In this document: one piece after another, positions 34,483-52,331 of the stretch
Layout: each line of letters opens with the position of its first letter
Position numbering within the stretch: the first letter of the stretch is position 1
Origin: Paeniglutamicibacter sulfureus
Lineage (GTDB): Bacteria; Actinomycetota; Actinomycetes; Actinomycetales; Micrococcaceae
Length of the DNA stretch: 64,000 nt
NCBI RefSeq assembly: GCF_039535115.1
Contig: NZ_BAAAWO010000001.1
Span: forward strand, 4,509,526-4,573,525
Reading direction: 5' to 3'
The notes under the pieces: generated by a model
Databases searched by the model: none
The model's input: the letters and a program-made list of their open reading frames with translations, nothing else
What the model was told of the DNA's origin: nothing
Made by a program: the position numbers and the translations under genes

Positions 34483-36027
34483 ATGACGATTCGGGCAAGG
34501 GGACGTCTCGCTGCGGTTGCTTCCGGGCTGGTTCTTGCCCTGGTCGCGGCCGGGTGCACCGCAGCGGATCCGGGGGACGACGCCGGCGCTGTCGGTGCCA
34601 AAGCGCAGGAGAACCAAGACAGCGTTGTGTTGGCCGGGGCCGAGGCTGGCATCGGCCAGATCGGCGGCAACCCCGCGGAGATGGCGCTGAAAGCCAGCGA
34701 GGCGTTCTTCGAAAAGGCACCCGCAGTCGTCGTGCTGGGCAATGACGGCGGGCAGGAAGCCGCCGCCGGTCAGGCCCGCGCACTCGGCGTCCCGCTGCTC
34801 GTGGCACCTGGCGACGCACCGGACGAAGCAACGGAGCGGCAAGATTTCTCCGCCGAGCTGGAGCGTCTGGGCGCACGTACCCTCATTGCCCACGGAACTG
34901 TGCCGGATTCACTGGCGGGGAATCTGGAAGTTGTCGACGGGGCGGCACCCGATGCCGATCTGCCAGACATTGACCCGGTCGAGGGAACCACGGATTCCGG
35001 CTTCGCCGTCGTCGTTCGCTCGGGGGAAGAAGCCGCGGAAGCGGCAGGTCCGGCACTGGTCACGGCCCAAGCCGCAGGGGCCGAGCTCCACACCATGGCC
35101 TCGCCTGACCCACGGGCTGCGAAGAACCAGAAATTTTTCCAAGAACACGCGGACTCGGAGCTGTACGCGATCGGCGGCGGCTTCGGGAAAGCCGCGGATT
35201 TCTCTGCCCTGGCGGCAACGGCTGCCGGAGGAATGCAACTTCCAGGCGGCGGGCAGATCGTGTTTCCGGACCGGCGCATGGTCGCGCTGTACGGGACCCC
35301 CGGGACGGCTTCACTGGGTCTGCTCGGCGAACAGGACGTCGATGGGGCCATCAAGCTCGCCAAAAAGTACGCCGCGGAGTACCAGCCCTTTAGCAAGGAG
35401 AAGGTCGTGCCGGCCTTCGAGATCATCTCGACAGTCGCCGCGGCGTCCGCGGGCAAGGACGGGAAGTACTCCAGCTACGTTCCCGTGGAACGACTCGAGT
35501 CCTGGGTGAAGGCGGCCGAGAAAGCAGGGGTATACGTGGTTCTTGACCTGCAACCGGGTCGCAACGACTTCCTGACCCAGGCCAAGCACTATGAAAAGTT
35601 GCTGGCCTACCCCAACGTCGGCATTGCCTACGACCCCGAGTGGCGGCTCAAGCCCGGCCAGCGTCACATGGTCCAAATCGGTTCCGTGGATGCCGCTGAG
35701 CTCAACCGCACCAACGATTGGTTGGCTGCGCTGACGCGCAAGCACCACCTGCCGCAGAAGGTCGTCATCCTGCACCAGTTCAAGTTGAGCATGATCCGCA
35801 ACCGATCCGCGCTGGATACTTCGCACCCCGAACTTGCGATGGTCTTGCATGCAGACGGCAACGGCACGCCGGGGATGAAGATGGAGACGTGGAAGAGCCT
35901 GCGCCGTGACCTGCCCGACGGCATCAGGATGGCGTGGAAGAACTTCATCGACGAGGACTCCCCAACGTTCACACCGAAGCAGACCTTCGACATCGATCCG
36001 AAGCCATGGTTCGTTTCCTACCAGTAG
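34483..36027 (+). CDS. Large lipoprotein, unknown function
   Basis: A 514-residue predicted lipoprotein: basic start, hydrophobic helix and lipobox LVAAGC (Cys about 25). The first half (about 40-270) contains repeated VVVLGNDGG/GVPLLVAP/ARTLIAHG elements that recall cell-wall-binding repeat 2 folds. The second half (about 290-500) looks like a barrel-type domain: VVPAFEIISTVAAASAG, VYVVLDLQPGRNDFL, NVGIAYDPEWRLKPGQ, KVVILHQF and MAWKNFIDEDSPTF, with several acidic residues at strand ends. A secreted hydrolase-like role is possible but unproven. Confidence 0.68.
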   Translation: MTIRARGRLAAVASGLVLALVAAGCTAADPGDDAGAVGAKAQENQDSVVLAGAEAGIGQIGGNPAEMALKASEAFFEKAPAVVVLGNDGGQEAAAGQARALGVPLLVAPGDAPDEATERQDFSAELERLGARTLIAHGTVPDSLAGNLEVVDGAAPDADLPDIDPVEGTTDSGFAVVVRSGEEAAEAAGPALVTAQAAGAELHTMASPDPRAAKNQKFFQEHADSELYAIGGGFGKAADFSALAATAAGGMQLPGGGQIVFPDRRMVALYGTPGTASLGLLGEQDVDGAIKLAKKYAAEYQPFSKEKVVPAFEIISTVAAASAGKDGKYSSYVPVERLESWVKAAEKAGVYVVLDLQPGRNDFLTQAKHYEKLLAYPNVGIAYDPEWRLKPGQRHMVQIGSVDAAELNRTNDWLAALTRKHHLPQKVVILHQFKLSMIRNRSALDTSHPELAMVLHADGNGTPGMKMETWKSLRRDLPDGIRMAWKNFIDEDSPTFTPKQTFDIDPKPWFVSYQ

Positions 36028-36268
36028 GCCGTACGATCACACCCGGAGGGGGGCCTTCCAGAGAAGGGTTTCGGATGGCATTTCCAGTCCCTGCCCGCCA
36101 GCTTCGAATGTATTCGGGGGCGAACCAAAAAGCCATGAGACCAACAACGGCGACCGCCGAACCCGAAATCAACAGGGCCGCACCAAGGCCGAATGCTGCG
36201 AGAAAGCACCCCGCCAGCACAGCAAATCTTATCTGTCTGGTTGTCTTTGGCGTCGACGCCAGGAACAC
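35969..36268 (-). CDS. Possible small two-helix membrane protein
   Basis: A 99-codon frame from a GTG at 36268. It encodes two adjacent hydrophobic segments (RFAVLAGCFLAAFGLGAAL and ISGSAVAVVGLMAFWF), then a hydrophilic tail. The tail overlaps the 3' end of the convergent lipoprotein gene by 59 bases. There is no clear ribosome site. The hydrophobic pattern is the main support, so this is tentative. Confidence 0.4.
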   Translation of the reverse strand: MFLASTPKTTRQIRFAVLAGCFLAAFGLGAALLISGSAVAVVGLMAFWFAPEYIRSWRAGTGNAIRNPSLEGPPPGVIVRPTGRKRTMASDRCRRSASV

Positions 36269-36289
36269 TTGTCGAAAGATTTTTGGACG

Positions 36290-36775
36290 TTAACCAAGCT
36301 GCACCTTGCATGTTTTTCCAGTTGGTTCTCCATCGAGAGTGAACTCAATGCGTAGGAATCGGGCAGCAGCAGGAGGTTCCGGAAGATACACCCAGGTGGC
36401 ATCCCAATCGGTCCCGCTTCCTGCGACTTGTCCGGCAGACCATCGATAGATGGTTCCTAAATCATCCGAGATATCCGCTCCAACAGGGCCAAGAACTAGC
36501 TGACCGGGCATCGCCGGTGCGTCTCCGGCTGCTTCCGCCCCATCACGTTCCCTCAGGTTTGCCCACTGCGATATTTCCTTGACGTGGTGTTCGTCGCGGC
36601 GCTGGGTTTCGGGACTGCGGATCCCTTCAAGGTGGAGTCTTGTTCCCTGTTTTCCCAACCATTCAGTTGCGGAAAACGGAGCGTCGGCAATCGACTCAAC
36701 CCCGGCGAACCGCACGTCCACACCATCCTTGGTTGCCACGATGAGATCCCCTGGGGCTGAAATGATTGTCATCAT
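36290..36775 (-). CDS. Hypothetical protein, 161 residues
   Basis: Not recognised. It begins with a beta-rich stretch (MTIISAPGDLIVATKDGVDVRFAGVES), has an acidic middle, and ends in a jelly-roll-like strand pattern (WVYLPEPPAAARFLRIEFTLDGEPTGKTCKVQLG). A TAGGGT hexamer lies exactly 7 bases before the ATG at 36775, so a leaderless start is likely. It is divergent from the next small gene, which has the same type of start. Confidence 0.6.
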   Translation of the reverse strand: MMTIISAPGDLIVATKDGVDVRFAGVESIADAPFSATEWLGKQGTRLHLEGIRSPETQRRDEHHVKEISQWANLRERDGAEAAGDAPAMPGQLVLGPVGADISDDLGTIYRWSAGQVAGSGTDWDATWVYLPEPPAAARFLRIEFTLDGEPTGKTCKVQLG

Positions 36776-36848
36776 GTGACCACCCTAGCGTGTGGTTTTC
36801 GACGCCGAATGTAGCATCCCAGCTCGGTGTGATCCGTAAGATTGTTCC

Positions 36849-37154
36849 ATGAGTAGCAAACGATGGGCTGTTGAAACTGTCCGCGATGAAATCCTCTCCG
36901 CAATCGCCGAAGTCCGCACCGTTGCTCGCTCCGAAAGCGACAAGCAGCGGAGCCACGCTGCCGACTGGCTCCACGAGCTGTTCGTCGGCGTCGCGGACAG
37001 GCGCGGTCTCCGTGCGGCCGCTGCAAAAGCCTTCAGCTTGTATGGCGGGACGGGGTCGTTTTCCGACGTCGGGTCGGCCGAGTCGGCTCACGCGGTCGAC
37101 AGGTTGGCCAAGGGCCTCCGGCGTGGGCGTTTCTGGTTACTGCGCCACTCTTGA
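36849..37154 (+). CDS. Hypothetical small helical protein, 101 residues
   Basis: A mostly helical protein with a glycine-rich motif SLYGGTGSFSDVGS followed by HAVDRLAKGLRRGRFWLL. I recall similar YGG-GSFSD motifs in small conserved hypotheticals of bacteria (possibly DUF6966), but the match is from memory. TAAGAT ends 6 bases before the ATG, a leaderless signature. Function unknown. Confidence 0.58.
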   Translation: MSSKRWAVETVRDEILSAIAEVRTVARSESDKQRSHAADWLHELFVGVADRRGLRAAAAKAFSLYGGTGSFSDVGSAESAHAVDRLAKGLRRGRFWLLRHS

Positions 37155-37503
37155 CGAGATGATGAGACTCTTCGCAAATTGAATTGACGACTGGCACCGG
37201 GAGGGTCCGGCGGAATCGGGGATCACTGACCAGGCCGGGACGAACCGGAGTCGACGGCGTTGCTGTCGTGTCATGGTCCACCCGCCGAATCACTGTGTCG
37301 CAAGGAATCCAGTCATGCGCCATGGCCGTCCTGTAATGGGAACCAGTTGGGGAATTGGACTTTCAGAATATTGAAAGAGGATCGTCCCGAAAGCTTAATT
37401 TCGGGTGAGTGTGTCGTTCCTATTTTTATTCGTGGGAATGCGGGAAGGCTGTTAGCCTCATATAAATGAGCCCCCCCATTCTGAGGTCCGGAGGAATTGG
37501 TTT
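37155..37503. other. 349-bp intergenic region before the methyltransferase gene
   Basis: No gene seen. The right half is AT-richer than its surroundings. It holds a CCCGAAA-GCTTAA-TTTCGGG hairpin (37386-37405), a T-rich stretch, and a CTCAT/ATGAG hairpin around TATAAA (37461-37466), which may be the -10 of the following gene. Confidence 0.45.
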
Positions 37504-38205
37504 ATGACGCAGGACACCGATTACGACAGCTTTGCCGAAGCGTACTCGACTGAAAATGAAACCAGTCTGATCAATGGATTCTACGAACGGCCGGCGATGA
37601 TCAAACTCGCAGGGGATGTCCGTAATCGTCGAATTCTAGATGCTGGCTGCGGTTCCGGGCCGCTGACGAAGGCGCTCCGTGATCGCGGCGCCAGCGTGAC
37701 AGGATTTGACTCCAGTGAAGCAATGATCAGCCTTGCCCGGAAAAGACTTGGTGCGGAAGCAGATCTGCTGACAGCCGACCTCGGCCAGCCGCTGCCATTC
37801 GCCGAGGAAACGTTCGATGACGTGATTTCCTCGCTGGTTTTTCACTATTTGCAAGACTGGCTGAGTCCGCTACAGGAGATACGGCGAGTACTGCGACCCG
37901 GAGGCCGACTCATCATGTCTGTCAACCATCCGATCCTCTACCCATGGACCAACCCCGGTTCCGACTACTTCAAGCTCACGAAGTATTCAGATGAGCACAC
38001 GTTCAATGGCCAACCGGCGATCCTCACATATTGGCATCGACCATTGCACGAAATGACGGACGCATTTGCCAAGGCCGGATTCCAGATCGAGGTAGTCAGT
38101 GAACCACCGTTCTCTGCCGATGCGCCCCCGGAACTCATCCCGCCTCAATTCGAAGGCAGGGAATCGTTCTTGAGCTTTATTTTCTTCGTGCTGCGTGCGA
38201 AATGA
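37504..38205 (+). CDS. Class I SAM-dependent methyltransferase
   Basis: A 233-residue methyltransferase (methyltransf_11 type). Motif I ILDAGCGSGPLTKALRDRG, acidic strand 2 end GFDSSEAM, motif II TFDDVISSLVFHYLQDW and motif III LRPGGRLIMSVNHP are present. It probably acts on a small molecule; the substrate is unknown. GGAGGAATTGGTTT precedes the ATG. Confidence 0.82.
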   Translation: MTQDTDYDSFAEAYSTENETSLINGFYERPAMIKLAGDVRNRRILDAGCGSGPLTKALRDRGASVTGFDSSEAMISLARKRLGAEADLLTADLGQPLPFAEETFDDVISSLVFHYLQDWLSPLQEIRRVLRPGGRLIMSVNHPILYPWTNPGSDYFKLTKYSDEHTFNGQPAILTYWHRPLHEMTDAFAKAGFQIEVVSEPPFSADAPPELIPPQFEGRESFLSFIFFVLRAK

Positions 38206-38410: not shown

Positions 38411-39295
38411 CTAGAATTCCTCACCGTCGGCGACGACTGCCGAGGCGGGTCCGACGATGTGCGGGTCGGGGGCCCCCACGAGCTCGTGATCCTTGCCCTC
38501 GTAGTCGAAGAGGCTCAGCACGTGGCGCATTGCCTCGAGCCTGGCGCGCTTCTTGTCATTGGACTTCACCACGGTCCACGGTGCCCAATCGGTATCCGTG
38601 CTGCGGAAGGTCTCTTCCTTGGCCTCGGTGTAGGCGTCCCACTTGTCCAGCGAGGCGAGGTCGGTGGGGGAAAGCTTCCACTGCCGAACCGGGTCGATCT
38701 GGCGGATGGTGAAGCGGGTGAGCTGTTCGCGGCGGGAAACCGAGAACCAGAACTTCACCAGAACGATCCCGTCATCAACCAGCTGCCGCTCGAAGGCAGG
38801 TGCCTGGTGCATGAACCTGTCGAATTGCTCCCGGGTGCAGAAGCGCATCACGCGTTCGACGCCGGAACGGTTGTACCAGGAGCGGTCGAAGAGGACCATT
38901 TCCCCGGCGGCCGGCAGGTGGGCGATGTAGCGCTGGAAGAACCACTGGGTGGATTCGCGTTCACTGGGCTTTTCCAATGCCACGACGCGGGCCCCGCGCG
39001 GGTTCAAATGCTCGGTGAACCTCTTGATGGTCCCGCCCTTGCCGGCGGCGTCGCGGCCCTCGAAGAGCACCACGAGTCGGCGCCCGGTGGCTTTGACCCA
39101 GACCTGCAGCTTGAGCAGCTCGATCTGCAACAACCGCTTTTCCAGGTCGTACTGGGCACGGTCCATGCGCGAGGAGTACGGGTAGCCCTCCCGCCAGGTG
39201 TCCACGACTTCGCCGGTGGAGGTCAACAGGACCGGGTCGTCATCATCGTCGTCGCGGACGGAGTAGCCGTGGGCGGCCAAATCAAGCAATTGCAT
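38411..39295 (-). CDS. ppk2: Polyphosphate kinase 2
   Basis: A 294-residue PPK2 family enzyme that transfers phosphate between polyphosphate and nucleotides. Walker A VLFEGRDAAGKGGTIKR, the lid region NPRGARVVALEKPSE, Walker B VLFDRSWYNRSG and the C-terminal WTVVKSNDKKRARLEAMRHVL are present. The N-terminal acidic run (RDDDDDDP) is unusual. The ATG at 39295 sits 7 bases after TACGGT, a leaderless signature; an upstream ATG at 39337 is the alternative. Whether it makes polyphosphate or uses it (class I-III) cannot be told here. Confidence 0.9.
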   Translation of the reverse strand: MQLLDLAAHGYSVRDDDDDDPVLLTSTGEVVDTWREGYPYSSRMDRAQYDLEKRLLQIELLKLQVWVKATGRRLVVLFEGRDAAGKGGTIKRFTEHLNPRGARVVALEKPSERESTQWFFQRYIAHLPAAGEMVLFDRSWYNRSGVERVMRFCTREQFDRFMHQAPAFERQLVDDGIVLVKFWFSVSRREQLTRFTIRQIDPVRQWKLSPTDLASLDKWDAYTEAKEETFRSTDTDWAPWTVVKSNDKKRARLEAMRHVLSLFDYEGKDHELVGAPDPHIVGPASAVVADGEEF

Positions 39296-39422
39296 GGGGT
39301 TGACCGTATCCGCGCGCCATGAACGGAAGATGAACATTGGGTGCCCGGAAGGGGGTTTGTGACCAGGCTCTATACGGTGAAAAGAGCACCGCGACGGCGG
39401 TGGGGCCGAGCCCCCTCCGCTG

Positions 39423-40832
39423 TCAGTTTGCCGCCGGGGCAGGCAGTGCCGGCAACGCCTTTTCAAAGAGCCAGGGTTTCAGGAACGCCTCGGCGGAGAG
39501 TGCGGTGGGCAGGTGCGCGTCCACGTGGTCCCGGAAGAGCCGGTAGGTGACCGTCCCGTGGCGCCGGGCCCCGGTCCAGGCCCGCAACATCGCGAAAAAC
39601 GCACGATCGCCCGATGCCAGCCGCAGGGCGTGCAGCGTCAGCGCACCGCGCTTGTAGACCCGGTCGTCGAACATGTCCTTGGGCCCGGGGGCCCCGATGG
39701 TGATGTCCTGCTCCAGGGATTCAATCATCGCCCAAGCGTCCCTGGCGCGTGAATCGGCGCTCGGGCCGCCGGAGGCCTCGGACCAGATCCATTCGGCATA
39801 GCAGGCGAAGCCCTCATGCAGCCAGATGTCCTCCCACGACCCGACGGTCAGCGAGTTCCCGAACCACTGGTGGGACAGCTCGTGGGCGATCAATCGCTGC
39901 TGCTCCCATCCCGGGAGCAGGTGGTTGTTGCCCAGGATGGAAATCCCGTGCGCCTCCAGCGGGATTTCCAGGTCGTCCTCCGTGACCACCACGGTGTAGT
40001 CCTCGAAGGGGTAGGGGCCGAAGGCCTCGATGAAGGTTTCCATCATCCGGGGCTGATCGGCCAATGCGGAGGAAACCCGGCGCAGCTGGGAGGTGTTCGA
40101 GGCAACCAGCTGGGGCACCGGGACCGGGGCACCTGCATGCCGTCCGCCCAGCGGTGCGGCACCGGCTTCGGTGCCGGCCAGGGAGCGCAGCTCGTAGCGG
40201 CCGATCTGCATAGTAGCCAGGTAGGTGGCCATGGGCTCGTGGACCTCGTAGGTCCAACGTTCGCGGCTGGAGCGCCGCTGGCGGTCAACGAGTTTTCCGT
40301 TGCAAACCGGGCGGTACCCGGCGTCGGTGTTGACGGAGATCCTGTAGCTTGCCTTTTGGCTGGGGTGGTCGTTGCAGGGGAACCAGGTGGGGGCCCCGTT
40401 GGGCTGTCCGGCCACGAGCACCCCGTCGGTGAGTTCCTCCCAGCCGACCTCGCCCCAGATGCCATCGCGCACATTCGGGACCCCGCCGTAGCGGATCTCC
40501 ACGGTGAACTGCTCCCCGGCGGGCACCGGGGTCACCAGGTGGAGCTCCAGCTTGCCGGCCTTCTGCGTGGACCGGGCCACCTTGGCACCGTTGACCTGGC
40601 AGCGCGAGGCCCGCAGCCCGGACAGGTCCAGGCTGATGCGGTGCAGCTCGACCAGGGCCACGGCGGTGATGGTGGCCCTGCCGTCGAGCCGGTTGCCCCC
40701 GAGCTTGCAGTCCAGGTCCAGGTCGTAGTGCGTGACACGGTAGTCGGCGCTGCCGGAGCGGGGCACGTAGGCATCCGGGATGAAGGAAGCCTCGGTGGCG
40801 GTGGTGGTGTCGGTCTGTTGGGTGTGGCTCAT
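39423..40832 (-). CDS. M1 family zinc aminopeptidase
   Basis: A 469-residue gluzincin peptidase. The N-terminal beta domain (VTHYDLDLDCKLGGNRLDGRA) is followed by the catalytic domain with HELSHQWFGNSLTVGSWEDIWLHEGFACYAEW, giving the HExxH-x18-E zinc site. The usual GAMEN is replaced by AHGISILGNN, so amine recognition may differ. No signal peptide is seen. The ATG overlaps the stop of the NRPS gene by 4 bases, so it belongs to that operon. A role in cutting the NRPS product is suggested by the known aminopeptidase-type degraders of epsilon-poly-lysine. Confidence 0.85.
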   Translation of the reverse strand: MSHTQQTDTTTATEASFIPDAYVPRSGSADYRVTHYDLDLDCKLGGNRLDGRATITAVALVELHRISLDLSGLRASRCQVNGAKVARSTQKAGKLELHLVTPVPAGEQFTVEIRYGGVPNVRDGIWGEVGWEELTDGVLVAGQPNGAPTWFPCNDHPSQKASYRISVNTDAGYRPVCNGKLVDRQRRSSRERWTYEVHEPMATYLATMQIGRYELRSLAGTEAGAAPLGGRHAGAPVPVPQLVASNTSQLRRVSSALADQPRMMETFIEAFGPYPFEDYTVVVTEDDLEIPLEAHGISILGNNHLLPGWEQQRLIAHELSHQWFGNSLTVGSWEDIWLHEGFACYAEWIWSEASGGPSADSRARDAWAMIESLEQDITIGAPGPKDMFDDRVYKRGALTLHALRLASGDRAFFAMLRAWTGARRHGTVTYRLFRDHVDAHLPTALSAEAFLKPWLFEKALPALPAPAAN

Positions 40833-43800
40833 GCGCGCGGCTGGCTCCAGGGTTGGACGGGGTTGCCCATCCAGTAGCTTGAAGGGGGAACGGATTCTCC
40901 GCGCATCACCAGCGAACCGGGGCCCACGGTGGCGCCTTCCGACAGGGATGCCGCCGGCAGGATGACCCCGTGCGGGCCCATCGTGGATCCAGCGGAGAGT
41001 TCCACCGTATCAATTGCCATGACCCGGTCGTGGAAGAGGTGGGTCTGGACCACCGTGCCGCGGTTGACGGTCGAGGAGTCACCGAGGGTGACCAGGTCGG
41101 CCTCGGGCAGCCAGTAGCTTTCGCACCAGACGCCGTGGCCGATCTTCGCGCCCAGGGCCCGCAGCCACCAGACCAGGGCCGGGGAGCCGGCGGCGGAGTG
41201 GGCGAACCACGGGGCGCAGACCATTTCGATGAACGTGTCAACTACCTCGTTGCGCCAGATAAAGGAGCTCCACAGGGCGTGTTCGCCCGGGCGGATGGGG
41301 CCCACCAGCAGCCACTTGGCGACGACCGCGGAGGTGGCGGCGACGGCACCTGCGGCAAGCATCACCGCGCCGCTGAGCAGTACCGCGGCCAGATAGCCGT
41401 ATTCGGCGGCCAGGAAGTCAAGCAGCGCCAGCACCAGCGCGGCGACGCCAACGGTGACCACGACGGGCACGATCCGGCAGATTTCCCACAGGGCGCGGGC
41501 AAACTTCAGGCGCAGCGGCGGGGCATAGGTGAGCGAGTCATCCGAGGCCACCGCGGTGCGGCGCAGGCGCACCGGCGGGCTGCCCAGCCAGGAGGTCCCG
41601 GCCTTCGCCTTGGCGGGGGTGGCCGAGAGCACCGCGACCAGGCCGTTGCGCGGCACGCGGCGCCCGGCTCCGGCGATGCCGGAGTTGCCCAGGAAGGCGC
41701 GTTTGCCGATCTTGGCCCGGCCCACCTTCATCCAGCCGCCGCCGAGTTCGTAGGTGGCGACCATGGTGTCGTCGGCCAGGAAGGCCCCGGCACCGATGGT
41801 GGTCATCTTGGGGATCAGCAGCACCGTGGAGGCCTCGACGTTGCGTCCGACCTTGGCGCCGAGCAGGCGCAGCCACACGGGTGTGAAGAGCGAGGCGTAA
41901 ATGGGGAAGAGGAGGTCGCGGGCCATGTCCAGCAGGCGTTCGGTGGCCCAGACCTGCCAGCCGATCCTGCTGTCGACCCGGTGCCAGCCCTCGCGCAGGC
42001 GAATTCCCAGCAGGCGCGTGGCCACCAGCACCAGCAGCATGTTCAGGCCGAACCACACCAGTGCCGCCACCGGGACGGCCAGCGTGAGCCGGAGCAGGGA
42101 TTCGTGCAGCGAGGCCTGGCCGCGCAGCAGCAGGGCAGCGGCGATGATGGCTCCCAGGATGGAGAGCAGGGGAATTGCGCCCAGGGCCGAGGAGGCCACG
42201 GCGAACATCGCGTTGCGCACCCGGCGGGTACGCAGCGGTTCCTGCGGCCAGGAGGGCTTGGACTTGCCGCTGCGTTCTGCGGGGGAGCCGGAGTAGGAGG
42301 AGAAGGCCTTGGTGCTTCCGGCAAGGGCGGAGCCCGCTGCCAGCTCCACCCCGTCGGCGACCACGGAGCCGGGCATCAACGTGCTGCGTGCCCCGACCGT
42401 GGCCTGGGCACCGACCTCGACGGTGCCCACATGGACACGGTCCCCGTCGATCCAGTAGCCGGTGAGATCGACCTCGGGTTCGATGCTGGCGCCGCGGCCC
42501 ACGGTGAGCAGGCCGGTGACCGGCGGGATCGAATGCAGCTGGACGTCGGCGCCGATCTTCGCGCCCAGGGCGCGGGCGTAGAACTGGATCCAGTGCGCGT
42601 TGCCGAGCGAGACGGGATCAACCAGATCGGCGATCTGCTGGGCCATCCACAGCCGCAGGTGCACCTTGCCCGAGCGCGGGTAGTTCCCGGGCTTGAGATT
42701 GCGTAGCAGCATCCGGGCCGCGATGACCGAAAGCGCCATGCGCCCCGGGGAGGAGACGAAGACGAGCCAAAGGGCGGCCACCGCCCACCAGGAGAGCCTG
42801 GGTGCGTCGGTGAAGACCCCCAGGGCGCCGAGCACGTTGTTGCCGGCGGCCAGGTACACGAGCCAGCGCATGCCCACCAGGATGAAGGTGGGGATGCCCA
42901 TCAGCGTCTGGAAGACCTGGGCGCGCCGGGTGGTGCGCTCGACGATTCGGGTCTCGGGTTCGGCGCCGGAACTGGTTCCCAGGGCCTCGAGCAGGGACCC
43001 GATGCGCGGGTGGGAATAGATCTCGGCCACCGTGACGGTGCGGTAGCGCACGCGCAGGGCGGAGACCAGCTGGGCGGCCGAGAGCGAACCGCCGCCGGAG
43101 GCGAAGAAATCGGTGTCAAGGCTGCCGACAGGGGTCCCCAGCACGCGGGTCCACTGCTCGATCACCCATGCAGCGTCCTGGCCGAGATCCGGCAGCACCC
43201 CTTCGGGCCCGGTGGCGGTGGCTCCGGGCAGCGGCCAGGGCAGCGCGTTGCGGTCGACCTTGCCGCTGGTCTTGGTGGGCAAGGTGTCGACGATTGCCAG
43301 CAGCGGGATCAGCGGTGCCGGAAGCATGTCCGCCAGCCGCCCGCGCGCAGCCGAGGTGTCGTAGGCGGGATCGGCGGCCAGGTAGCCGACGAGGATCTGG
43401 TTTCCGGCGGCGGTGGTCTTCACCGCTGCCGCGGCGCCGGAGACCTCGGGCAGGGACTGGAGAGCGGCATCGATTTCGCCCAATTCGATGCGTCGGCCGC
43501 CGAGCTTGACCTGTTCGTCCATCCGGCCCAGGAAGACCAGACCCTCGGGGTCGGCCTGCACCAGGTCACCCGAGCGGTAGGCGCGCTCCCAGCCCAGGGT
43601 TTCGAAGGGCGCGTATTTCTCGGCGTCCTTGGCCGGGTCCAGGTAGCGACCGAGTCCGACGCCGCCGATGATCAGTTCCCCGCTCTGACCGGGGGCCACG
43701 GGGAAGCCCGAGGCGTCGACGACGGCAAGGTCCCAGCCCTCGAGCGGCAGGCCGATGCGCACCGGATCCATGCCGTCCATCTGCGCGGCACAGGCCACAA

Positions 43801-44731
43801 CGGTCGCTTCGGTCGGACCATAGGTGTTCCAGACCTCGCGCCCCGGAACCGCAAGGCGGGCGGCAAGCTCGGGCGGGCAGGCTTCGCCGCCGAAGATCAG
43901 CAGGCGCACGTTTTCCAGGGCCTCGGCCGGCCAGAGGGCTGCGAGGGTGGGGACGGTGGAGACCACGGTGACCCCGCGGGTCACCAGCCAGGGACCCAGG
44001 TCCATGCCCGAACGAACCAGGGCACGCGGGGCCGGCACCAGGCAGGCGGCATGGCGCCAGGCCAGCCACATTTCCTCGCAGGAGGCATCGAAGGCCACGG
44101 ACAGGCCGGCAAGCACGCGGTCCTCGGCGCCCAGGGGCTCACTTGTCAGGAAGATCCTGGCCTCGGCGTCGACGAAGGCGGCCGCCGAGCGCTGCGTGAT
44201 GGCAACGCCCTTGGGAGTCCCGGTGGATCCGGAGGTGAAGATGATCCAGGCGTCGTCGCCCAGCGCGGCGTCCCGGGCCGGCGCCGGGTTTGCCGTCTCG
44301 CGCAGGGAGGTGATCTTGCCCTTTTCGCCCACGACCGCGGCGACCTTGGCCTCGGAAAAGACCAGTTGGGCGCGTTCCTCCGGATCGTCGGCATCGACGG
44401 GAACGTAGGCTGCGCCGATCCTCATCGTGGCCAGGATGCCGATGTAGAGTTCGCGCGTTCCCGAGGGGATGCGGATGCCGATGTGGTCCCCGGCGCCGAG
44501 TCCGGCTGCGCGCAGACGCCCGGCCATCTCGTCGACGGCCACGAGCAGTTCCGCGTAGGTCAGCGAGCGCTCGCCGTCATCAAGTGCGGGGGCTTCGGGG
44601 TGGGCCGCCGCGCTGGCCTCAAGGATGTCGATGAGGGTGCGGGGCTTCGGTGCCAATTCGCTGCCCGGGTACTGCGGCAGGAACAAGGGGGCGGTGGATC
44701 CATTGTCGGCAATGCTGGGAGTCGTTTCCAC
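40829..44731 (-). CDS. Pls/PosA-type non-ribosomal peptide synthetase (epsilon-poly-lysine synthetase-like)
   Basis: About 1300 residues, single module. Adenylation domain 30-500: A3 FTSGSTGTPKGV, A5 NTYGPTEAT, A7 YRSGDL, A8 GRMDEQVKLGGRRIELGEID, A10 TSGKVDRNAL. Carrier domain with the pantetheine serine at about 549 (FFASGGGSLSAAQ). Then six membrane helices in three pairs, with three tandem hexapeptide-like domains, each opened by an LGAK-[IV]G motif. There is no condensation or thioesterase domain, exactly the Pls layout. My hand alignment to GrsA gives the pocket code DAESIGTVV-K, close to lysine codes. The GTG at 44731 is uncertain; longer starts to 44824 exist. Confidence 0.88.
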   Translation of the reverse strand: METTPSIADNGSTAPLFLPQYPGSELAPKPRTLIDILEASAAAHPEAPALDDGERSLTYAELLVAVDEMAGRLRAAGLGAGDHIGIRIPSGTRELYIGILATMRIGAAYVPVDADDPEERAQLVFSEAKVAAVVGEKGKITSLRETANPAPARDAALGDDAWIIFTSGSTGTPKGVAITQRSAAAFVDAEARIFLTSEPLGAEDRVLAGLSVAFDASCEEMWLAWRHAACLVPAPRALVRSGMDLGPWLVTRGVTVVSTVPTLAALWPAEALENVRLLIFGGEACPPELAARLAVPGREVWNTYGPTEATVVACAAQMDGMDPVRIGLPLEGWDLAVVDASGFPVAPGQSGELIIGGVGLGRYLDPAKDAEKYAPFETLGWERAYRSGDLVQADPEGLVFLGRMDEQVKLGGRRIELGEIDAALQSLPEVSGAAAAVKTTAAGNQILVGYLAADPAYDTSAARGRLADMLPAPLIPLLAIVDTLPTKTSGKVDRNALPWPLPGATATGPEGVLPDLGQDAAWVIEQWTRVLGTPVGSLDTDFFASGGGSLSAAQLVSALRVRYRTVTVAEIYSHPRIGSLLEALGTSSGAEPETRIVERTTRRAQVFQTLMGIPTFILVGMRWLVYLAAGNNVLGALGVFTDAPRLSWWAVAALWLVFVSSPGRMALSVIAARMLLRNLKPGNYPRSGKVHLRLWMAQQIADLVDPVSLGNAHWIQFYARALGAKIGADVQLHSIPPVTGLLTVGRGASIEPEVDLTGYWIDGDRVHVGTVEVGAQATVGARSTLMPGSVVADGVELAAGSALAGSTKAFSSYSGSPAERSGKSKPSWPQEPLRTRRVRNAMFAVASSALGAIPLLSILGAIIAAALLLRGQASLHESLLRLTLAVPVAALVWFGLNMLLVLVATRLLGIRLREGWHRVDSRIGWQVWATERLLDMARDLLFPIYASLFTPVWLRLLGAKVGRNVEASTVLLIPKMTTIGAGAFLADDTMVATYELGGGWMKVGRAKIGKRAFLGNSGIAGAGRRVPRNGLVAVLSATPAKAKAGTSWLGSPPVRLRRTAVASDDSLTYAPPLRLKFARALWEICRIVPVVVTVGVAALVLALLDFLAAEYGYLAAVLLSGAVMLAAGAVAATSAVVAKWLLVGPIRPGEHALWSSFIWRNEVVDTFIEMVCAPWFAHSAAGSPALVWWLRALGAKIGHGVWCESYWLPEADLVTLGDSSTVNRGTVVQTHLFHDRVMAIDTVELSAGSTMGPHGVILPAASLSEGATVGPGSLVMRGESVPPSSYWMGNPVQPWSQPRA

Positions 44732-45209
44732 TGTGGCTTTCTGGAAGTGGTGCTCGGCCCAGCCCCCTGTAGGGGACGGACCAGGACGATGGAGCCCAAC
44801 CATGCTCCGGCGGCACGCCGACAAGGCGTGCGCCGCCGCCCGGCCGGCACGTACGCGCCCACCGTAGTCACGGCAGGTGAACGGCAGGTGGACCGGGAGG
44901 TTAACGGGAGGTGTCTTGGGGCGGGAATCACAGGGCCGTGTGATGCCTCACCAACTTGGTTGGAGGGAGCTGCCGTCCACCCGCTTGGGAATCCGGCGAT
45001 CCCTGCCAGCGGGGCCAATGCCCGGGCCTGGGCAGGAGCGCCGGTCGGGTTGAAGCCGGCCGCGGGAGCTCAAACCAATATGTGGCGCAGCGCCCACTGT
45101 ATGTATCGGAATTGGTTCCGGCTTCCAGCGCTGATGCGAGATACTCGATGCAGTCGAACCGGCCATGCATCCGTGGCCAGTGACCCGCGGAACAAGGAGC
45201 GCAATCCGA
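44732..45209. other. 478-bp divergent regulatory region of the NRPS cassette
   Basis: No gene seen. It contains the tandem PHO-box-like repeats (44876-44916), a TACGGT (44866-44861, minus strand) that may be the -10 for the NRPS gene, and a GATACT near 45136 that may serve the phosphopantetheinyl transferase gene. Confidence 0.5.
44876..44916 (-). promoter_or_regulatory. Four tandem PHO-box-like direct repeats
   Basis: On the plus strand GGTGAAC (44876), GGTGGAC (44887), GGTTAAC (44899) and a decayed GGTGTCT (44910) recur at 11, 12 and 11 bases. Read on the minus strand the first is GTTCACC, the core repeat of actinobacterial PhoP sites with 11-base units. This suggests phosphate-responsive control of the NRPS operon. 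Confidence 0.5.
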
Positions 45210-46007
45210 ATGCACGACGTACCGGGTAAGAGTCTTGAGGCGGGACTCTCGGCCCCTTTGTGGGCGGCCGCCCCGTTGGCGGAGGCCGCGACGCATCCCG
45301 AGATCCGATTGCTGCCCGACGAACTCGCCCGCGCCGGCGCATACCTTGCCGGGCGCCCGAGCGACGACTTTGTGGCAGGACGGATCCTTGTCCGGGTATT
45401 GGCGGCGGACCTGTTGAACCGTGTGATGCCTTCGGGCCGCGGGATCCTTCCCGGCGACCTCGAACTCACACAGTACTGTCAGCAATGCGCGTCGGTGGCG
45501 CACGGGACCCCGAAGCTCCGGATGGCGAAGACCGGGCAGTCTTTTTCCCTCTCCTACGCACGGACTGCTGGCTGGCTACTGCTTGCGCTGGCCCCCGCGA
45601 ACAGTCGGCTGGGCGTTGACCTGGCCGACCTGGACGACAGCGCGTTTTCCTCCGGAGACGGCGGCATGCTCGAGGATTATGCCTACGCGCGGGAAGAGCG
45701 AGAACGACTCGAACTGTTGCCGGAGTCCGAACGGCAGCGGCTTCGGGCCAGATGGTGGGCCCTGAAGGAAGCGGTCGCCAAGGCCAGCGGGGAGGGCCTG
45801 GCCGGTGAGGCCGGCATTCCCGTGGTTGCCGGGAAAAACGTCCACCCGTTGTTGCACAGCCCCGGACTCCGCGTGCTGGATCTTGATCCAGAAAGCCTCG
45901 ACTCCCTGGGTGCCATGCTTCCTCCCCATTTGGTGGGCAGCCTCGTTTGGGCCCCTGGCCCGGAGGCCTGGGAAAATCGAGTAGGTGGGGCGGTGGGAAT
46001 CGCCTGA
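45210..46007 (+). CDS. 4'-phosphopantetheinyl transferase
   Basis: A 265-residue Sfp/AcpT superfamily enzyme. The Mg-binding LGVDLADLDD and the WWALKEAVAKASGEGL motif are intact. AAGGAG lies 10 bases before the ATG at 45210. It is divergent from the Pls-like NRPS, whose carrier domain is inactive without this modification, so it is probably the dedicated activator. Confidence 0.87.
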   Translation: MHDVPGKSLEAGLSAPLWAAAPLAEAATHPEIRLLPDELARAGAYLAGRPSDDFVAGRILVRVLAADLLNRVMPSGRGILPGDLELTQYCQQCASVAHGTPKLRMAKTGQSFSLSYARTAGWLLLALAPANSRLGVDLADLDDSAFSSGDGGMLEDYAYAREERERLELLPESERQRLRARWWALKEAVAKASGEGLAGEAGIPVVAGKNVHPLLHSPGLRVLDLDPESLDSLGAMLPPHLVGSLVWAPGPEAWENRVGGAVGIA

Positions 46008-46772: not shown

Positions 46773-47741
46773 CTACGGGATGAGGATGGTTTTACCGGTG
46801 GTCGCTCGGGATTCAAGGGCGGTGTGGGCGTTGCCCGCCTCGGCCAGCGGGAAGCGTGCCCCGATGCGGACGTCGAGCTTGCCGAGCGAGACCAATTCAA
46901 AAAGCTCGCCGGAACGCCAGCGTCGCTCCTCGGCATCAAGGAGGAAGTCGGCGACCTTGGGTCGGGTCACGGTCAATGAACCATGGGCGTTGAGGCGCTG
47001 CAAGTCAAAGGGCGGCACCTGGCCCGAGGCTCCGCCAAAGAGCACCAGGGTGCCGCGGATCTTGAGGGCTTCGAGTGACCCTTCGAAGGTGTCCTTGCCG
47101 ATGCCGTCGTACACGACATCGACGCCCTTGCCGCCGGTGATTTCTCGGACGCGCACCGGCACTTCGTCGTAGGAAAGGACATGGTCCGCGCCGGCGGCGC
47201 GCGCCAGTTCCGCCTTTTCCCGAGTCGAAGTGGTGGTGATGACGGTGGCCCCGCGCAGCTTCAGCAGCTGGATCAACAGCAGGCCGACGCCACCGGCGCC
47301 GGCATAGGTGAGCACGGTGTCGCCCTGCTGCACGTTGTAGCTGGAATTGACCAGGTAGTGGGCCGTGATGCCCTGCAGCGGCAGCGCGCCGGCGGTTTCC
47401 AGCGACACATTCTCCGGGACGGGCAGTGCCTTCTCGGCATCCAGCAGCGTGTGGGTGGCATAGGTGCGCGAGCCTTCAGTGGTGGCCACCCGGTCCCCGA
47501 CGGCGAAATCGGTGACGCCGGCGCCAACGGCCTCGACGGTGCCGGCGCACTCGCTGCCCGGGGTGAAGGGATACTTGACGTTGTAGACGCCCGAGCGCTG
47601 GTACGTCTCAATGAAATTCACGCCAACGGCAGCGACCTTGACCAGCAGTTGTCCGGGCCCGGGGGAGGGCATCGGCGACGCAACATAGTCGAATACTTCG
47701 GGTCCTCCGGCCTGACGGGCGATAATTGCATGGGAACTCAC
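46773..47741 (-). CDS. NADPH:quinone oxidoreductase, zeta-crystallin type
   Basis: A 322-residue zinc-free medium-chain dehydrogenase. VAAVGVNFIETYQRSGVYNVKYPFTPGSE is the quinone reductase signature, and LTYAGAGGVGLLLIQLLKLRGA the Rossmann motif. It reduces quinones with NADPH. The GTG at 47741 has AAGGAG at 8 bases on its strand. It is the last gene before the arginine operon. Confidence 0.88.
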   Translation of the reverse strand: MSSHAIIARQAGGPEVFDYVASPMPSPGPGQLLVKVAAVGVNFIETYQRSGVYNVKYPFTPGSECAGTVEAVGAGVTDFAVGDRVATTEGSRTYATHTLLDAEKALPVPENVSLETAGALPLQGITAHYLVNSSYNVQQGDTVLTYAGAGGVGLLLIQLLKLRGATVITTTSTREKAELARAAGADHVLSYDEVPVRVREITGGKGVDVVYDGIGKDTFEGSLEALKIRGTLVLFGGASGQVPPFDLQRLNAHGSLTVTRPKVADFLLDAEERRWRSGELFELVSLGKLDVRIGARFPLAEAGNAHTALESRATTGKTILIP

Positions 47742-47844
47742 GTGCTGGACTCCTTGGGTCGGCGCTTGGCTTTGTTTCCACCATAGCGTTCGGGCCCCCG
47801 GGGCCCGTGACCAGGGCCCCGATGTTGCGTTGCGGGACCAAACA

Positions 47845-47882
47845 AATGAATATTTATTAGCTATCATGCATAAATGCGTAGT
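47845..47882 (+). promoter_or_regulatory. Paired ARG boxes and -10 of argC
   Basis: AATGAATATTTATTAGCT at 47845-47862 fits nearly all fixed positions of the ArgR consensus (WNTGAATWWWWATTCANW). A weaker second copy starts at 47865, 20 bases later. A TATCAT -10 at 47862-47867 sits between them, so bound ArgR would block polymerase. Confidence 0.75.
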
Positions 47883-47893
47883 AGGGTTGGGTT

Positions 47894-48925
47894 ATGACGA
47901 TTTCAGTAGCTGTATCCGGAGCCAGTGGGTATGCCGGCGGCGAGGTCCTGCGCCTGCTGTCCAACCACCCCGACGTGACCATTGGTGCGATCACCGCCCA
48001 CTCGAATGCCGGCCAGCGACTGGGCGAGCTCGCCCCGCACCTGCATTCGCTGGCCGACAGGGTCCTGGTGGAAACCACGGTCGAGCAACTGCGCGGACAT
48101 GACGTCGTCTTCCTGGCCCTGCCACACGGTGCCAGCGCCGAGATCGCTGCCCAGCTACCCGCCGACACCCTCGTCATCGACGCCGGGGCCGACCACCGCC
48201 TGGAATCCCCGGAGGCCTGGGAAAAGTTCTACGGCTCCTCCCATGCCGGAACCTGGCCCTACGGCCTGCCGGAGCTGCCCGGAGCCCGGGAACTGCTCGT
48301 CGGCGCCAAGCGCATTGCGGTGCCCGGATGCTACCCGACCTCGGTCCAGCTGGCACTCGTGCCCGGATTCGCCGCCAACCTCCTGGAACCCGACGACGTG
48401 GTCGTGGTTTCCGCCTCCGGAACCTCGGGAGCGGGTAAGAGCGCCAAGGTGAACCTCATTGGCTCCGAGGTCATGGGCTCCATGAACCCCTACGGCGTGG
48501 GCGGCTCCCATCGCCACACCCCGGAAATGGAACAAGGTCTCTCCAAGGCCGCCGGCGTCCCGGTGACTGTCTCCTTCACCCCGACCCTGGCGCCGATGCC
48601 GCGCGGCATCCTCACCACCGCCACCGCCAGGGTCAAGCCCGGTGTGGACGAGGCAACGCTGCGCGCTGCGTGGACGGCTGCCTACCAGGACGAACCATTC
48701 GTGCATTTGCTGCCCGAAGGCCAGTGGCCCGCAACCTCGTCGGTCATGGGCTCGAACCACGCGCAGATCCAGCTGGCCTTCGACCCGCACGCGAACCGCG
48801 TGATCGTTTCCGCGGTCATCGACAACCTCACCAAGGGCACCGCAGGCGGAGCCGTCCAATCCATGAACATCGCCCTGGGCCTGAAGGAAACCGCCGGCCT
48901 GGCACTTGAAGGAGTAGCACCGTGA
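47894..48925 (+). CDS. argC: N-acetyl-gamma-glutamyl-phosphate reductase
   Basis: Third step of arginine synthesis. The 343-residue protein has the NADP motif [18 protein letters not shown], the catalytic cysteine in [27 protein letters not shown] and the C-terminal [20 protein letters not shown]. It heads the argCJBDFR operon; its stop overlaps argJ (GTGA). Confidence 0.96.
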
Positions 48926-50100
48926 GCAACGCACCCATGGGAATCACCTACCCCGGCGGCTTCAGCGCCTCGGGTATCACCGCCGGGCTCAAGGCCTCGG
49001 GAAACCCGGACCTTGCCCTGGTGCGCAACAACGGCCCGCGCTTTGACGCGGCAGCCGTGTTCACCTCCAACCGCGTGGCGGCGGCCCCGGTGCACTGGTC
49101 GCGCCAGGTGATCTCCGACGGACGGGCCGACGCCGTGGTGCTGAACTCCGGCGGCGCCAACGCCTGCACCGGCCCCGAGGGCTTCGCCAACACCCACGCC
49201 ACCGCCGAACACGTGGCCACGGTCCTGGGCGTTTCCAGTGGGGACGTGCTGGTCTGCTCCACCGGGCTGATCGGCGAGCAACTGCCCATGGACAAGATCC
49301 TGCCCGGCGTGGACGCGGCCGCTGCGGCACTGGGCTCCGGCAATGAATTCGACGGGGGAGCTGCTGCAGCCACCGCCATCATGACCACCGACACGGTGTC
49401 CAAGCAGGCGGGGTTCGCCGGATCCGGGTACTCCATCGGCGCCATGGCCAAGGGCGCAGGCATGCTTGCCCCCGGGCTGGCCACGATGCTGGTGGTCATC
49501 ACCACCGATGCGGTGCTGGAACCGGCGCAGTTGGATGCCGCACTGCGCGAGGCCACCCGCGTCAGCTTCGACAGGGCGGATTCCGACGGCTGCATGTCGA
49601 CCAACGACACCGTGATCCTGATGTCCTCCGGCGCCAGCGAAACGACGCCCGACGTCGCGGAGTTCACCGCCGGACTCACCGAGGTCTGCGTCGGACTGGC
49701 CAAGGCGCTGATCTCCGATGCCGAGGGCGCCGCCCATGAAATCACCATCCGCACCTTCAACGCCGCCACCGAGGACGACGCCGTCGAGGTTTCGCGCACC
49801 GTGGCCCGGTCCAACCTCTTCAAGACCGCGATCTTCGGCCAGGACCCCAACTGGGGCCGGGTGCTTTCCGCGGTGGGAACCACCCGGGCGGCCTTCGAGC
49901 CGGACGAGCTGAACGTGTCCATCAACGGCGTCCAGGTATGCCGCAAGGGCGGGGTGGGCGATGACCGCAACCTCGTGGACCTTTCCGGGCGCAACGTCCT
50001 GGTGGAAATCGACCTCAACGCGGGCATGCAGGAAGCCAGCCTGTGGACCAACGACCTGACCCACGACTACGTCCACGAGAATTCGGCCTACAGCAGCTAG
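48922..50100 (+). CDS. argJ: Bifunctional ornithine acetyltransferase/N-acetylglutamate synthase
   Basis: A 392-residue self-cleaving enzyme that recycles the acetyl group. Cleavage occurs before the threonine of [20 protein letters not shown] (Ala-Thr within GLATML). N-terminal [12 protein letters not shown] and C-terminal [14 protein letters not shown] are also typical. The GTG overlaps the argC stop by 4 bases. Confidence 0.96.
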
Positions 50101-50151
50101 GCGACGCAAGTGCCCCGGCTCAATCGTTTCAGTGAGGAAGCACCTAAGAGC

Positions 50152-51078
50152 ATGTCTGAGAACAAACCCACGCCAACGCCCATGGACGTGGCACAGCGCA
50201 AGGCCGAGGCCCTGATCGAGGCCCTGCCCTGGATCCAGCGCTTCGCCGGAACCACCATGGTCATCAAGTACGGCGGCAACGCCATGATCAACGAGGACCT
50301 GCGGCGCGCCTTTGCCGAAGACATCGTGTTCCTGCGCCACGTGGGCATCAACCCCGTGGTCGTGCACGGGGGAGGCCCGCAGATTAACTCCATGCTCAGC
50401 CGCCTGGGCATCGAGTCCGAATTCAAGGGCGGGCTGCGCGTCACCACCCCCGAGGCCATGGACGTGGTCCGCATGGTGCTCACCGGGCAGGTGCAGCGCG
50501 AACTGATCGGCCTGATCAACTCCCACGGACCCTACGCGGTGGGACTTTCCGGCGAGGACGGAGCCCTGCTGCGGGCAGTGCGCACCGGGACCTACATTGC
50601 CGGGCAGCACGTGGACCTTGGACTGGTGGGAGAGGTGACGGGGGTCAAGCCCGACCAGATCCTCGACCTGCTGGCCGCCGGCAAGATTCCGGTGGTCTCC
50701 ACCGTGGCCCCGGAGGTCGACGAGAAGGACAACCCCACCGGACAGGTGCTCAACGTCAACGCCGACACCGCCGCGGCGGCACTGGCCAGCGCCCTGGGCG
50801 CCTCCAAGTTGGTGATCCTCACCGACGTGGAGGGGCTGTACGCGGCCTGGCCGGACAGGTCCTCGCTGATCTCATCGATGGACGCCGAGCAGCTGCGCGC
50901 CCTGATGCACAAGCTCGAATCGGGGATGATCCCCAAGATGGCGGCCTGCCTCAAGGCCGTGGACGAGGGCGTGGGCCAGGCCCACATCGTCGACGGCCGC
51001 CAACCACACTCCATGCTGCTGGAGGTCTTTACCTCCGCCGGCGTCGGAACCCAAGTCATTCCCAAGGACAAGGCATGA
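50152..51078 (+). CDS. argB: Acetylglutamate kinase
   Basis: A 308-residue amino acid kinase: [47 protein letters not shown] and [16 protein letters not shown]. The N-terminal helix (about 8-25) is the arginine-sensing element in feedback-inhibited hexameric forms, so feedback control is likely. The ATG at 50152 was chosen because homology begins there. Confidence 0.95.
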
Positions 51079-52319
51079 ACGAGATCATTGAACAGGAAAC
51101 GGGCGCCCTGGGCGCCCTGCAGGGCAGCGAATTGCTCGCCCGCTACAACCACTCGTTGCTGGGTGTCTTCGGCACCCCGCAACAGGTTCTGGTGCGCGGG
51201 GCAGGCTGCCACGTGTGGGACGCCGACGGCAAGGAATACCTCGACCTGCTCTCCGGGATCGCCGTCAACGCCCTGGGCCACGCCCACCCGCTGCTCACCT
51301 CGGTGATTTCCTCGCAGCTGGCCACCCTGGGACACATCTCCAACTTCTTCACCAGCCCCACGCAGATCGCGCTGGCGGAAAAGCTCCTGGAGCTCAGCTC
51401 GGCACCGGAGGGCTCCAAGGTGTTCTTCACCAACTCCGGCACAGAGGCCAATGAAGCTGCCTTCAAGCTGGCCCGCCGCAACGCGGGCACGCCCGAAGCA
51501 CCGCGTACCAAGATCATTGCCCTGGAGCAAGCCTTCCACGGCCGCACCATGGGCGCGCTCGCGCTGACCTGGAAGCAGGCCTACCGCGAGCCGTTCGAGC
51601 CGCTTCCGGGCGGGGTCGAATGGATCCCGGCCGGGGACATCGAGGCGCTGCGCGCAGCGGTGGATGAAACCACCGCCGCGGTCTTCATCGAACCCATCCA
51701 GGGGGAGGCCGGGGTCATCGAATTCGGCACCGGATACCTGCGTGAGGCACGGGAGATCACCGAGGCCGCCGGCGCGCTGCTGGTCTTTGACGAGGTCCAG
51801 ACGGGCATCGGCCGCACCGGCGACTGGTTCGCCTCCGCCGGGGTCATCCCCGACGCCATGACACTGGCCAAGGGCCTGGGCGGCGGATTCCCGATTGGCG
51901 CGATGGTCGTCTTCGGCACCGAGGCCACCGGGCTGCTCACCCCGGGCCAGCACGGAACGACCTTCGGCGGCAACCCCGTGGCCACCGCCGCGGCCCTGGC
52001 CACCCTGCATGTCATAGAATCCCAGGACCTGCTGGCGCAGGTGCGAAGCGTGGGCCAGGAGATCCGGACCAAGCTCGCCGCGCTCGACTTCGTCACGGCT
52101 GTCCGCGGCCAGGGGCTGCTCATCGGTTTCGACCTGGCGGCCGCCGTGGCCCCGGCGGTTGTCACCGCCGCATTGGCGGCGGGGTTCATCATCAACGCCC
52201 CGGGCCCCAACACGCTGCGCCTGGCACCTCCCCTGATCATCACCACCGAACAACTCGACACCTTCGTAGCAGCGTTGCCCGCGATATATGCCGCGGCCGT
52301 TGCCGGCACCCAGGAATAG
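51075..52319 (+). CDS. argD: Acetylornithine aminotransferase
   Basis: A 414-residue class III PLP transaminase. [48 protein letters not shown] and the PLP lysine in [17 protein letters not shown] are present. It overlaps argB by 4 bases (ATGA). Confidence 0.95.
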
Positions 52320-52331
52320 GACCACAGCACC

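Follow-up and report, generated by a model that had tools for sequence, protein, structure and literature searches.

A putative Pho-controlled epsilon-poly-L-lysine locus with a linked polyphosphate kinase in Paeniglutamicibacter sulfureus

The window analysed here is a 64-kb stretch of DNA (64,000 nucleotides; contig NZ_BAAAWO010000001.1 of assembly GCF_039535115.1) that forms the terminal portion of the one-contig genome of Paeniglutamicibacter sulfureus (4,573,525 bases). It carries pls, coding for a non-ribosomal peptide synthetase (NRPS) of the epsilon-poly-L-lysine (epsilon-PL) synthetase type, a gene for an M1 metallopeptidase, a gene for an Sfp-type 4'-phosphopantetheinyl transferase (PPTase) and ppk2, coding for polyphosphate kinase 2 (PPK2). 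The original prediction, made from the letters of the window, had described the first three as a compact poly-amino-acid cassette in a Micrococcaceae member, and the genus agrees with that placement. The interval it gave (40829..46007) covers pls and the PPTase gene and omits the M1 gene named in its title (39423-40832, minus strand). ppk2 is the next gene after the M1 gene, its ATG lying 127 bp past the M1 stop, and was absent from that prediction. PHO-box-like direct repeats stand before both ppk2 and pls. We propose, with a probability of about 0.6, that the whole is a Pho-controlled, polyphosphate-fuelled epsilon-PL locus.

The pls reading frame (40829-44824, minus strand) has 1331 residues counted from the first TTG (44824). 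The likely start is the GTG at 44731, because the block AGAAAGCC[AG]CAGTGGA is conserved there in nine aligned Paeniglutamicibacter loci. Pfam places an AMP-binding domain at residues 68-391 and a carrier domain at 553-615 and reports no condensation or thioesterase domain in the protein (E up to 0.001), whilst the terminal-domain profile TIGR02353, a search proposed with the original prediction, matches over its full length (residues 637-1323, model positions 1-695; 693.3 bits, cut-off 423.1). The Pls-type layout first suggested, an adenylation (A) domain, a carrier and a terminal domain without condensation or thioesterase domains, is borne out by these matches, and the three tandem LGAKIG-type domains show up as LGAK[IV]G motifs (residues 753, 988 and 1224). 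As for six helices in three pairs, a simple hydropathy scan puts five of the six expected helices above cut-off (peaks at 641, 881, 916, 1121 and 1145), and the full count of six leans partly on the family match. The same scan exceeds the cut-off once within the A domain (497). Compared with PDB, the terminal domain shows weak hexapeptide-acyltransferase similarity alone (best E 5e-5). Membership of the Pls/PosA-type synthetases is confirmed by profile, and the Pls cassette is not a chance assembly because its family matches are full-length or above curated cut-offs.

Table 1 Features of the locus, numbered from the first letter of the window.
Feature	Position	Strand	Basis
pls, epsilon-poly-L-lysine synthetase-type NRPS	40829..44731	-	TIGR02353 match and within-genus start conservation
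Adenylation domain, lysine-type pocket code DAESIGTVVK	43220..44653	-	7wew, 659 bits, aligned 58-535
Carrier (thiolation) domain	42980..43168	-	PF00550, 40.7 bits, residues 553-615
Membrane terminal (polymerising) domain, three LGAK[IV]G motifs	40856..42916	-	TIGR02353, residues 637-1323
pldII-like M1 metallopeptidase	39423..40832	-	PF01433, 82.4 bits
ppk2, polyphosphate kinase 2, TIGR03707 type	38411..39295 (open reading frame 38411-39466)	-	TIGR03707, 373.2 bits, cut-off 301.8
PHO-box-like direct repeat and TAnnnT before ppk2	39303..39335	-	Motif scan
PHO-box-like repeat upstream of pls, TACGGT at +5	44861..44905	-	Motif scan, composite score
Terminator-like hairpin between M1 and ppk2	39387..39402	-	Terminator scan, chance level overall
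Sfp-type 4'-phosphopantetheinyl transferase	45165..46007	+	PF01648, 33.8 bits, cut-off 25

Two samples of loci underlie the comparisons that follow. The named loci are the best 80 of at least 592 confirmed and are biased towards close relatives. The family set consists of 100 pls regions hand-picked from the Micrococcaceae matches listed, 94 of them lysine-type and six with a diaminobutyrate code; L196 and L038, whose frames came out broken or misplaced, were left out of code typing. A profile search finds TIGR02353 at E <=1e-30 in 114 of 197 Micrococcaceae genomes. Copies with short frames (about 1040-1160 residues) were left out of the family set; their TIGR02353 terminal domains include G085:C1:325523-327667, G136:C7:97369-99513 and G180:C1:2639751-2641895, among others. 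Such frames are short for a synthetase with A, carrier and terminal domains and possibly represent split or differently built synthetases.

The best PDB relative of the A domain is 7wew, named epsilon-poly-L-lysine synthase. In the alignment the ten pocket residues, at positions located through the PheA numbering, read DAESIGTVVK and are those of the 7wew A domain; lysine is therefore the likely substrate of Pls. The original prediction had supposed a basic amino acid, and the code is the one for lysine. The same ten residues recur in all 79 aligned named loci and in 88 of the 94 lysine-type Micrococcaceae loci, the rest being four with DAESIGTVIK, one gapped and one not aligned. The product is very probably epsilon-PL.

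A second synthetase locus, ask-dat-pls2, lies in the same genome at 4,345,353 (G000:C1:4340304-4349465; L119:2305-11466), and its synthetase has the diaminobutyrate-type code DFECLSVVTK. The 654-residue frame that follows it has no Pfam match. ask and dat beside a synthetase are the context of poly-diaminobutyrate synthetases (PMC8117764), and because ask-dat-pls2 matches that context the strain probably codes for two cationic polymers.

The start of the M1 gene and the stop of pls share the ATGA at 40832-40829, an overlap noted in the original prediction and seen in the sequence. The zinc site of the peptidase is intact (HELSH-X18-E), and neither its N-terminus nor its hydropathy (maximum 1.19) reveals an obvious signal or membrane helix. 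No protein among the 120 matches listed for the peptidase is named for polylysine; the names are M1 or aminopeptidase. An M1 homologue lies downstream of pls in 80/80 named loci; among the lysine-type loci the gene is immediately downstream in 85/94 and on the same strand within the fetched region in 93/94. At L210-L213 (genus g13) and L215-L217 (genus g32), where Pls is about 50% identical to that of the window, the M1 match is not adjacent and sits 3-4 kb further downstream. In Streptomyces albulus the major epsilon-PL-degrading enzyme is reportedly PldII, its repression lowered epsilon-PL tolerance, and it has been published as a means of self-protection (PMC9223678), in agreement with the earlier statement that an aminopeptidase-type enzyme degrades the polymer in that species. 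The peptidase of the window probably acts in polymer trimming or self-protection.

The PPTase gene is divergent from pls, as first described, and its product has 280 residues, Sfp-type PPTases being about 220-290 residues long. A PPTase of this type, detected with a model built from the named loci, is present in the region of 78/94 lysine-type loci and matches in 31/80 named loci. Its presence in 78/94 loci led us to reject a chance neighbour and, with the adjacent M1 gene, upholds the three-gene linkage that had been expected in relatives. The gene is divergent upstream of pls in 9/9 Paeniglutamicibacter loci; of the 78, 66 have it on the opposite strand downstream of pls, and three (genus g32) have it upstream in the same orientation as pls. 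In the six diaminobutyrate-code loci, M1, PPTase and PPK2 matches are all absent beside the synthetase gene. PF01648 has two matches in the genome of the window, the other in a 136-residue frame, presumably AcpS since this is the size expected for it. Because the only other match is AcpS-sized, the PPTase of the window is probably the one that primes every NRPS carrier in the cell.

The TIGR03707 type of PPK2 corresponds to class I. PDB relatives of the window PPK2 include 5ll0, 3czq and 6dzg, the last named polyphosphate:ADP phosphotransferase; together with the TIGR03707 profile they predict an enzyme of the ADP-phosphorylating kind. PPK1 and PhoU genes are also present in the genome. Of the 94 lysine-type loci, 31 have a PPK2 gene within 6.5 kb downstream of pls, and these belong to 9 of 20 genera. 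Two Arthrobacter loci among the named ones (L026 and L031) have the gene upstream, its frame overlapping the pls open frame; among the remaining 78 named loci PPK2 is close by in L007 and L008 only, with a weak match 8 kb upstream in L078. With only one to four PPK2 matches per genome (193/197 genomes), linkage in 31/94 loci led us to reject ppk2 as a chance neighbour. In six genera selected for holding linked PPK2, a hand count gave a PPK2 match with best E <=1e-90 in 28/32 genomes with Pls versus 0/17 without.

In Streptomyces the PHO box consists of direct repeats of GTTCACC-like 11-nt units (PMC4415409, PMC7244524), and the consensus from these papers was used for scoring. The sites of the window carry such GTTCACC-like direct repeats 11 nt apart. 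Before the ppk2 ATG the sequence reads GTTCATCTTCC GTTCATGGCGC gcgga TACGGT (39335-39303), with the core GTTCA-N6-GTTCA; its TAnnnT stands 5 nt past the second 11-nt unit and 7 nt ahead of the ATG. The strict dimer occurs 11 times in the 4.57-Mb genome, against one occurrence for a backward control. The ppk2 site is one of the 11, and another is upstream of one of three pstS genes. All eight genomes of the genus listed with linked PPK2, that of the window included, have the strict dimer just upstream of ppk2. At G000:C1:3923527-3923584 (L245) two strict dimers, with starts 42 bp apart, precede a frame for a GntR/UTRA regulator, and paired dimers with the same 42-bp spacing recur in further genomes of this genus.

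This promoter arrangement follows the linked genes across genera. We compared 33 linked PPK2s (31 from the family set plus those of L026 and L031, with L007 and L008 dropped as duplicates of genus-mates) with 20 unlinked ones hand-chosen among the strong matches listed. A repeat above the 1% shuffle threshold precedes 31/33 linked genes (shuffles 6/990) versus 1/20 unlinked genes (shuffles 1/600). TAnnnT follows within 24 nt of the repeat in 29/33 (shuffled tails 887/3300); its distance from the second unit is 5 nt in 24 genes, 16 nt in four and 4 nt in one. In the other four of the 33 it was read by eye from the printed sequences at 27 nt. The spacings 5, 16 and 27 step by one 11-nt unit. By inspection, with the frame checked for the window only, an ATG or GTG stands 6-8 nt past TAnnnT in the 24, a distance that suggests a leaderless ppk2 mRNA. 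Pho control of ppk2 is likely on this evidence.

Upstream of pls the sequence reads GTTAACCTCCCG GTCCACCTGCC GTTCACCTGCC gtgac TACGGT (44905-44861). We defined a composite site as two units scoring >=10/14 plus TAnnnT at +5, a threshold chosen by the analyst. It is present before pls in 9/9 Paeniglutamicibacter members examined, two of them exactly on the threshold, and in 0/6 diaminobutyrate-code loci. A looser dimer score is passed before pls by 24/94 family and 18/77 named loci, with 0-4 at control offsets except the offset near the beginning of ppk2 (9/93). Of these looser sites 8/24 and 3/18 are oriented away from pls; genus g15 accounts for five. A scan for the E. coli-type promoter consensus found none, with 0.7 expected. 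The evidence gives a good prediction of Pho control of pls in Paeniglutamicibacter.

We propose that Pls would activate L-lysine with ATP, load it on the carrier domain primed by the neighbouring PPTase and join the residues at the membrane into an epsilon-linked polymer. Cutting of the polymer, probably in self-protection, would fall to the PldII-type M1 peptidase, whose gene is probably coupled to pls in translation. A PhoP/RegX3-type regulator is predicted to turn on ppk2, and in this genus pls, when phosphate is short, because ppk2 and (in this genus) pls carry PHO-box-like promoters. Pls uses one ATP per lysine, releasing AMP and PPi, and PPK1 can build a polyphosphate store. PPK2 would spend stored polyphosphate to convert ADP to ATP for the ATP-costly polymerisation; that it serves epsilon-PL synthesis we find somewhat more plausible than the contrary. 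On a wider view, Paeniglutamicibacter and several further genera of the Micrococcaceae would make epsilon-PL in response to phosphate starvation, with pls and ppk2 switched on by a PhoP/RegX3-type regulator and polyphosphate covering the cost, and the polymer would attack neighbours and free their phosphate-rich contents; this view is offered tentatively as a possibility we would not yet favour.

Several observations weigh against a Pho-controlled, polyphosphate-fuelled locus. Of the three pstS genes just one has the dimer, and there TAnnnT is missing at +5 and the composite score is 6/14. The composite site stands before pls in just 12/94 family loci, nine of them from this genus (shuffles 1/1880), and in 9/77 named loci, namely two Brevibacterium, two Humibacillus, Compostimonas, Plantibacter, Agreia, Cryobacterium and one Pseudarthrobacter (shuffles 0/1540), control stretches giving 0-3 per offset. 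A PHO-box-like site was not found in the published S. albulus pls promoter fragment. Neither Corynebacterium variabile itself nor C. glutamicum given its pls produced epsilon-PL under the conditions used; the authors assumed that some trigger signal, as yet unknown, is required (PMC8117764). As to linkage, 63/94 lysine-type loci are without PPK2 within 6.5 kb downstream, and other genera hold equally strong PPK2 matches without Pls; the tie of pls to PPK2 is not universal. A terminator-like hairpin separates M1 and ppk2 in the window, in a scan that found four such structures against 4.2 expected by chance. A tree built from the 33 linked PPK2s and the 20 unlinked ones has a single branch that sets the linked group apart; its support is weak (56/76; 54% of bootstrap trees), and shared ancestry could thus account for much of the common arrangement. 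These points on linkage are also what speaks for an ordinary pls-pldII cassette, whose PPTase and PPK2 would be neighbours kept by descent and functionally unconnected to epsilon-PL, PPK2 being simply a Pho-regulon gene placed there; related loci are not independent of one another, and the linked-PPK2 group is weakly supported. What makes such descent unlikely as the full account is that the genes stay together across layouts. The PPTase gene takes three positions (divergent upstream, opposite strand downstream, pls strand upstream), and so does ppk2 (after M1, after the PPTase gene, or upstream overlapping pls). Within the six chosen genera pls and strong PPK2 are gained and lost together (28/32 versus 0/17), and the ppk2 and pls promoters share one layout in this genus.

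Two further explanations concern the direction of the kinase and the identity of the polymer. PPK2 reactions are reversible, and the enzyme might make polyphosphate from ATP under stress, either to store phosphate or to provide a polyanion for neutralising or exporting the polycation; the coding of polycation and polyanion side by side is suggestive of this. The closest relatives are of the ADP-phosphorylating type (TIGR03707; 6dzg), and a PHO-box-like site would predict expression at scarce phosphate, a poor time for building polyphosphate, which together render the reverse direction very unlikely. Poly-ornithine or poly-diaminobutyrate could be thought of as the polymer, since an argCJBDF-like cluster, a potential ornithine supply, begins 1.9 kb beyond the PPTase gene and the same genome encodes another synthetase, with a different amino acid as its predicted substrate. 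The arg genes, present beside pls in 20/80 named loci, look like general synteny. The pocket code is that of the Pls A domain, unlike the local DFECLSVVTK and unlike the DMEHNGTVSK of PosA (PMC10522769). The PosA study proposes chain length to be governed by the second pocket position, lysine being paired with alanine there (PMC10522769). Ornithine and diaminobutyrate were rejected as substrates on the pocket code, and we regard either polymer as extremely improbable.

The core of the locus is known: a pls-pldII operon has been described, as have pls homologues from coryneforms, Arthrobacter among them, and such homologues are common in cheese and skin coryneforms (PMC8117764). epsilon-PL is also named in genome papers on Arthrobacter relatives. 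S. albulus Pls/PldII and the C. variabile pls operon share with the window the synthetase architecture, the pocket code and a peptidase directly downstream (PMC8117764); translational coupling was reported for S. albulus (PMC9223678), and in the window the ATGA overlap is known from sequence. Compared with both, the window adds the adjoining Sfp-type PPTase, PPK2 and the PHO-box-like promoters on ppk2 and pls. PosA, the delta-poly-L-ornithine synthetase of Acinetobacter baumannii, belongs to the same NRPS-like family, with A, carrier and membrane terminal domains, and differs from the window Pls in its pocket and in being encoded by a single-gene operon (PMC10522769). gamma-Poly-diaminobutyrate synthetases with dat and ask (PMC8117764) resemble ask-dat-pls2, a locus separate from the window pls. 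What appears new is the natural association with ppk2 and the presence of PHO-box-like promoters; pls and pldII, as well as their coupling and their spread into coryneforms, were known. A full-text literature search, partial and confined to open-licence papers, found no description of a natural pls-ppk2 or Pho-pls link.

The polyphosphate kinase encoded by S. lividans ppk is a PPK1. It is Pho-regulated (PMC4415409, PMC7244524), and ATP regeneration under phosphate limitation is stated in PMC7244524; the available text of the two papers describes no link to a polymer synthetase. In S. albulus, engineering in a PPK2 (ADP to ATP) together with a polyphosphate:AMP phosphotransferase brought gains of 21% in epsilon-PL and 72% in ATP (PMC10012588). 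There the ATP-regenerating PPK2 was added by hand along with the AMP-phosphorylating enzyme, whereas here PPK2 lies naturally near pls in 31/94 loci, which suggests that nature attached the same kind of ATP-regenerating enzyme that engineers gave S. albulus. RegX3-SenX3, alkaline phosphatase D and ppk1 were raised in an epsilon-PL overproducer (PMC10157215). PHO-box-like promoters on pls and on the linked polyphosphate kinase point to phosphate limitation as a candidate trigger that is cheap to test; if the wider view of a phosphate-starvation response is true, low phosphate would be the missing trigger for 'silent' coryneform pls genes.

Beyond these genes, G+C content falls to 0.57 at 36001-38000 of the window, the remaining 2-kb bins lying at 0.58-0.71. 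The methyltransferase gene at 37504-38205 is matched in none of the 80 named loci. On the far side of the PPTase gene, positions 46773-53300 hold a quinone-reductase-like gene and the argCJBDF-like cluster, the arg names coming from inspection of translations, and the first genes of the cluster recur beside pls in 20-22 of the 80 named loci.

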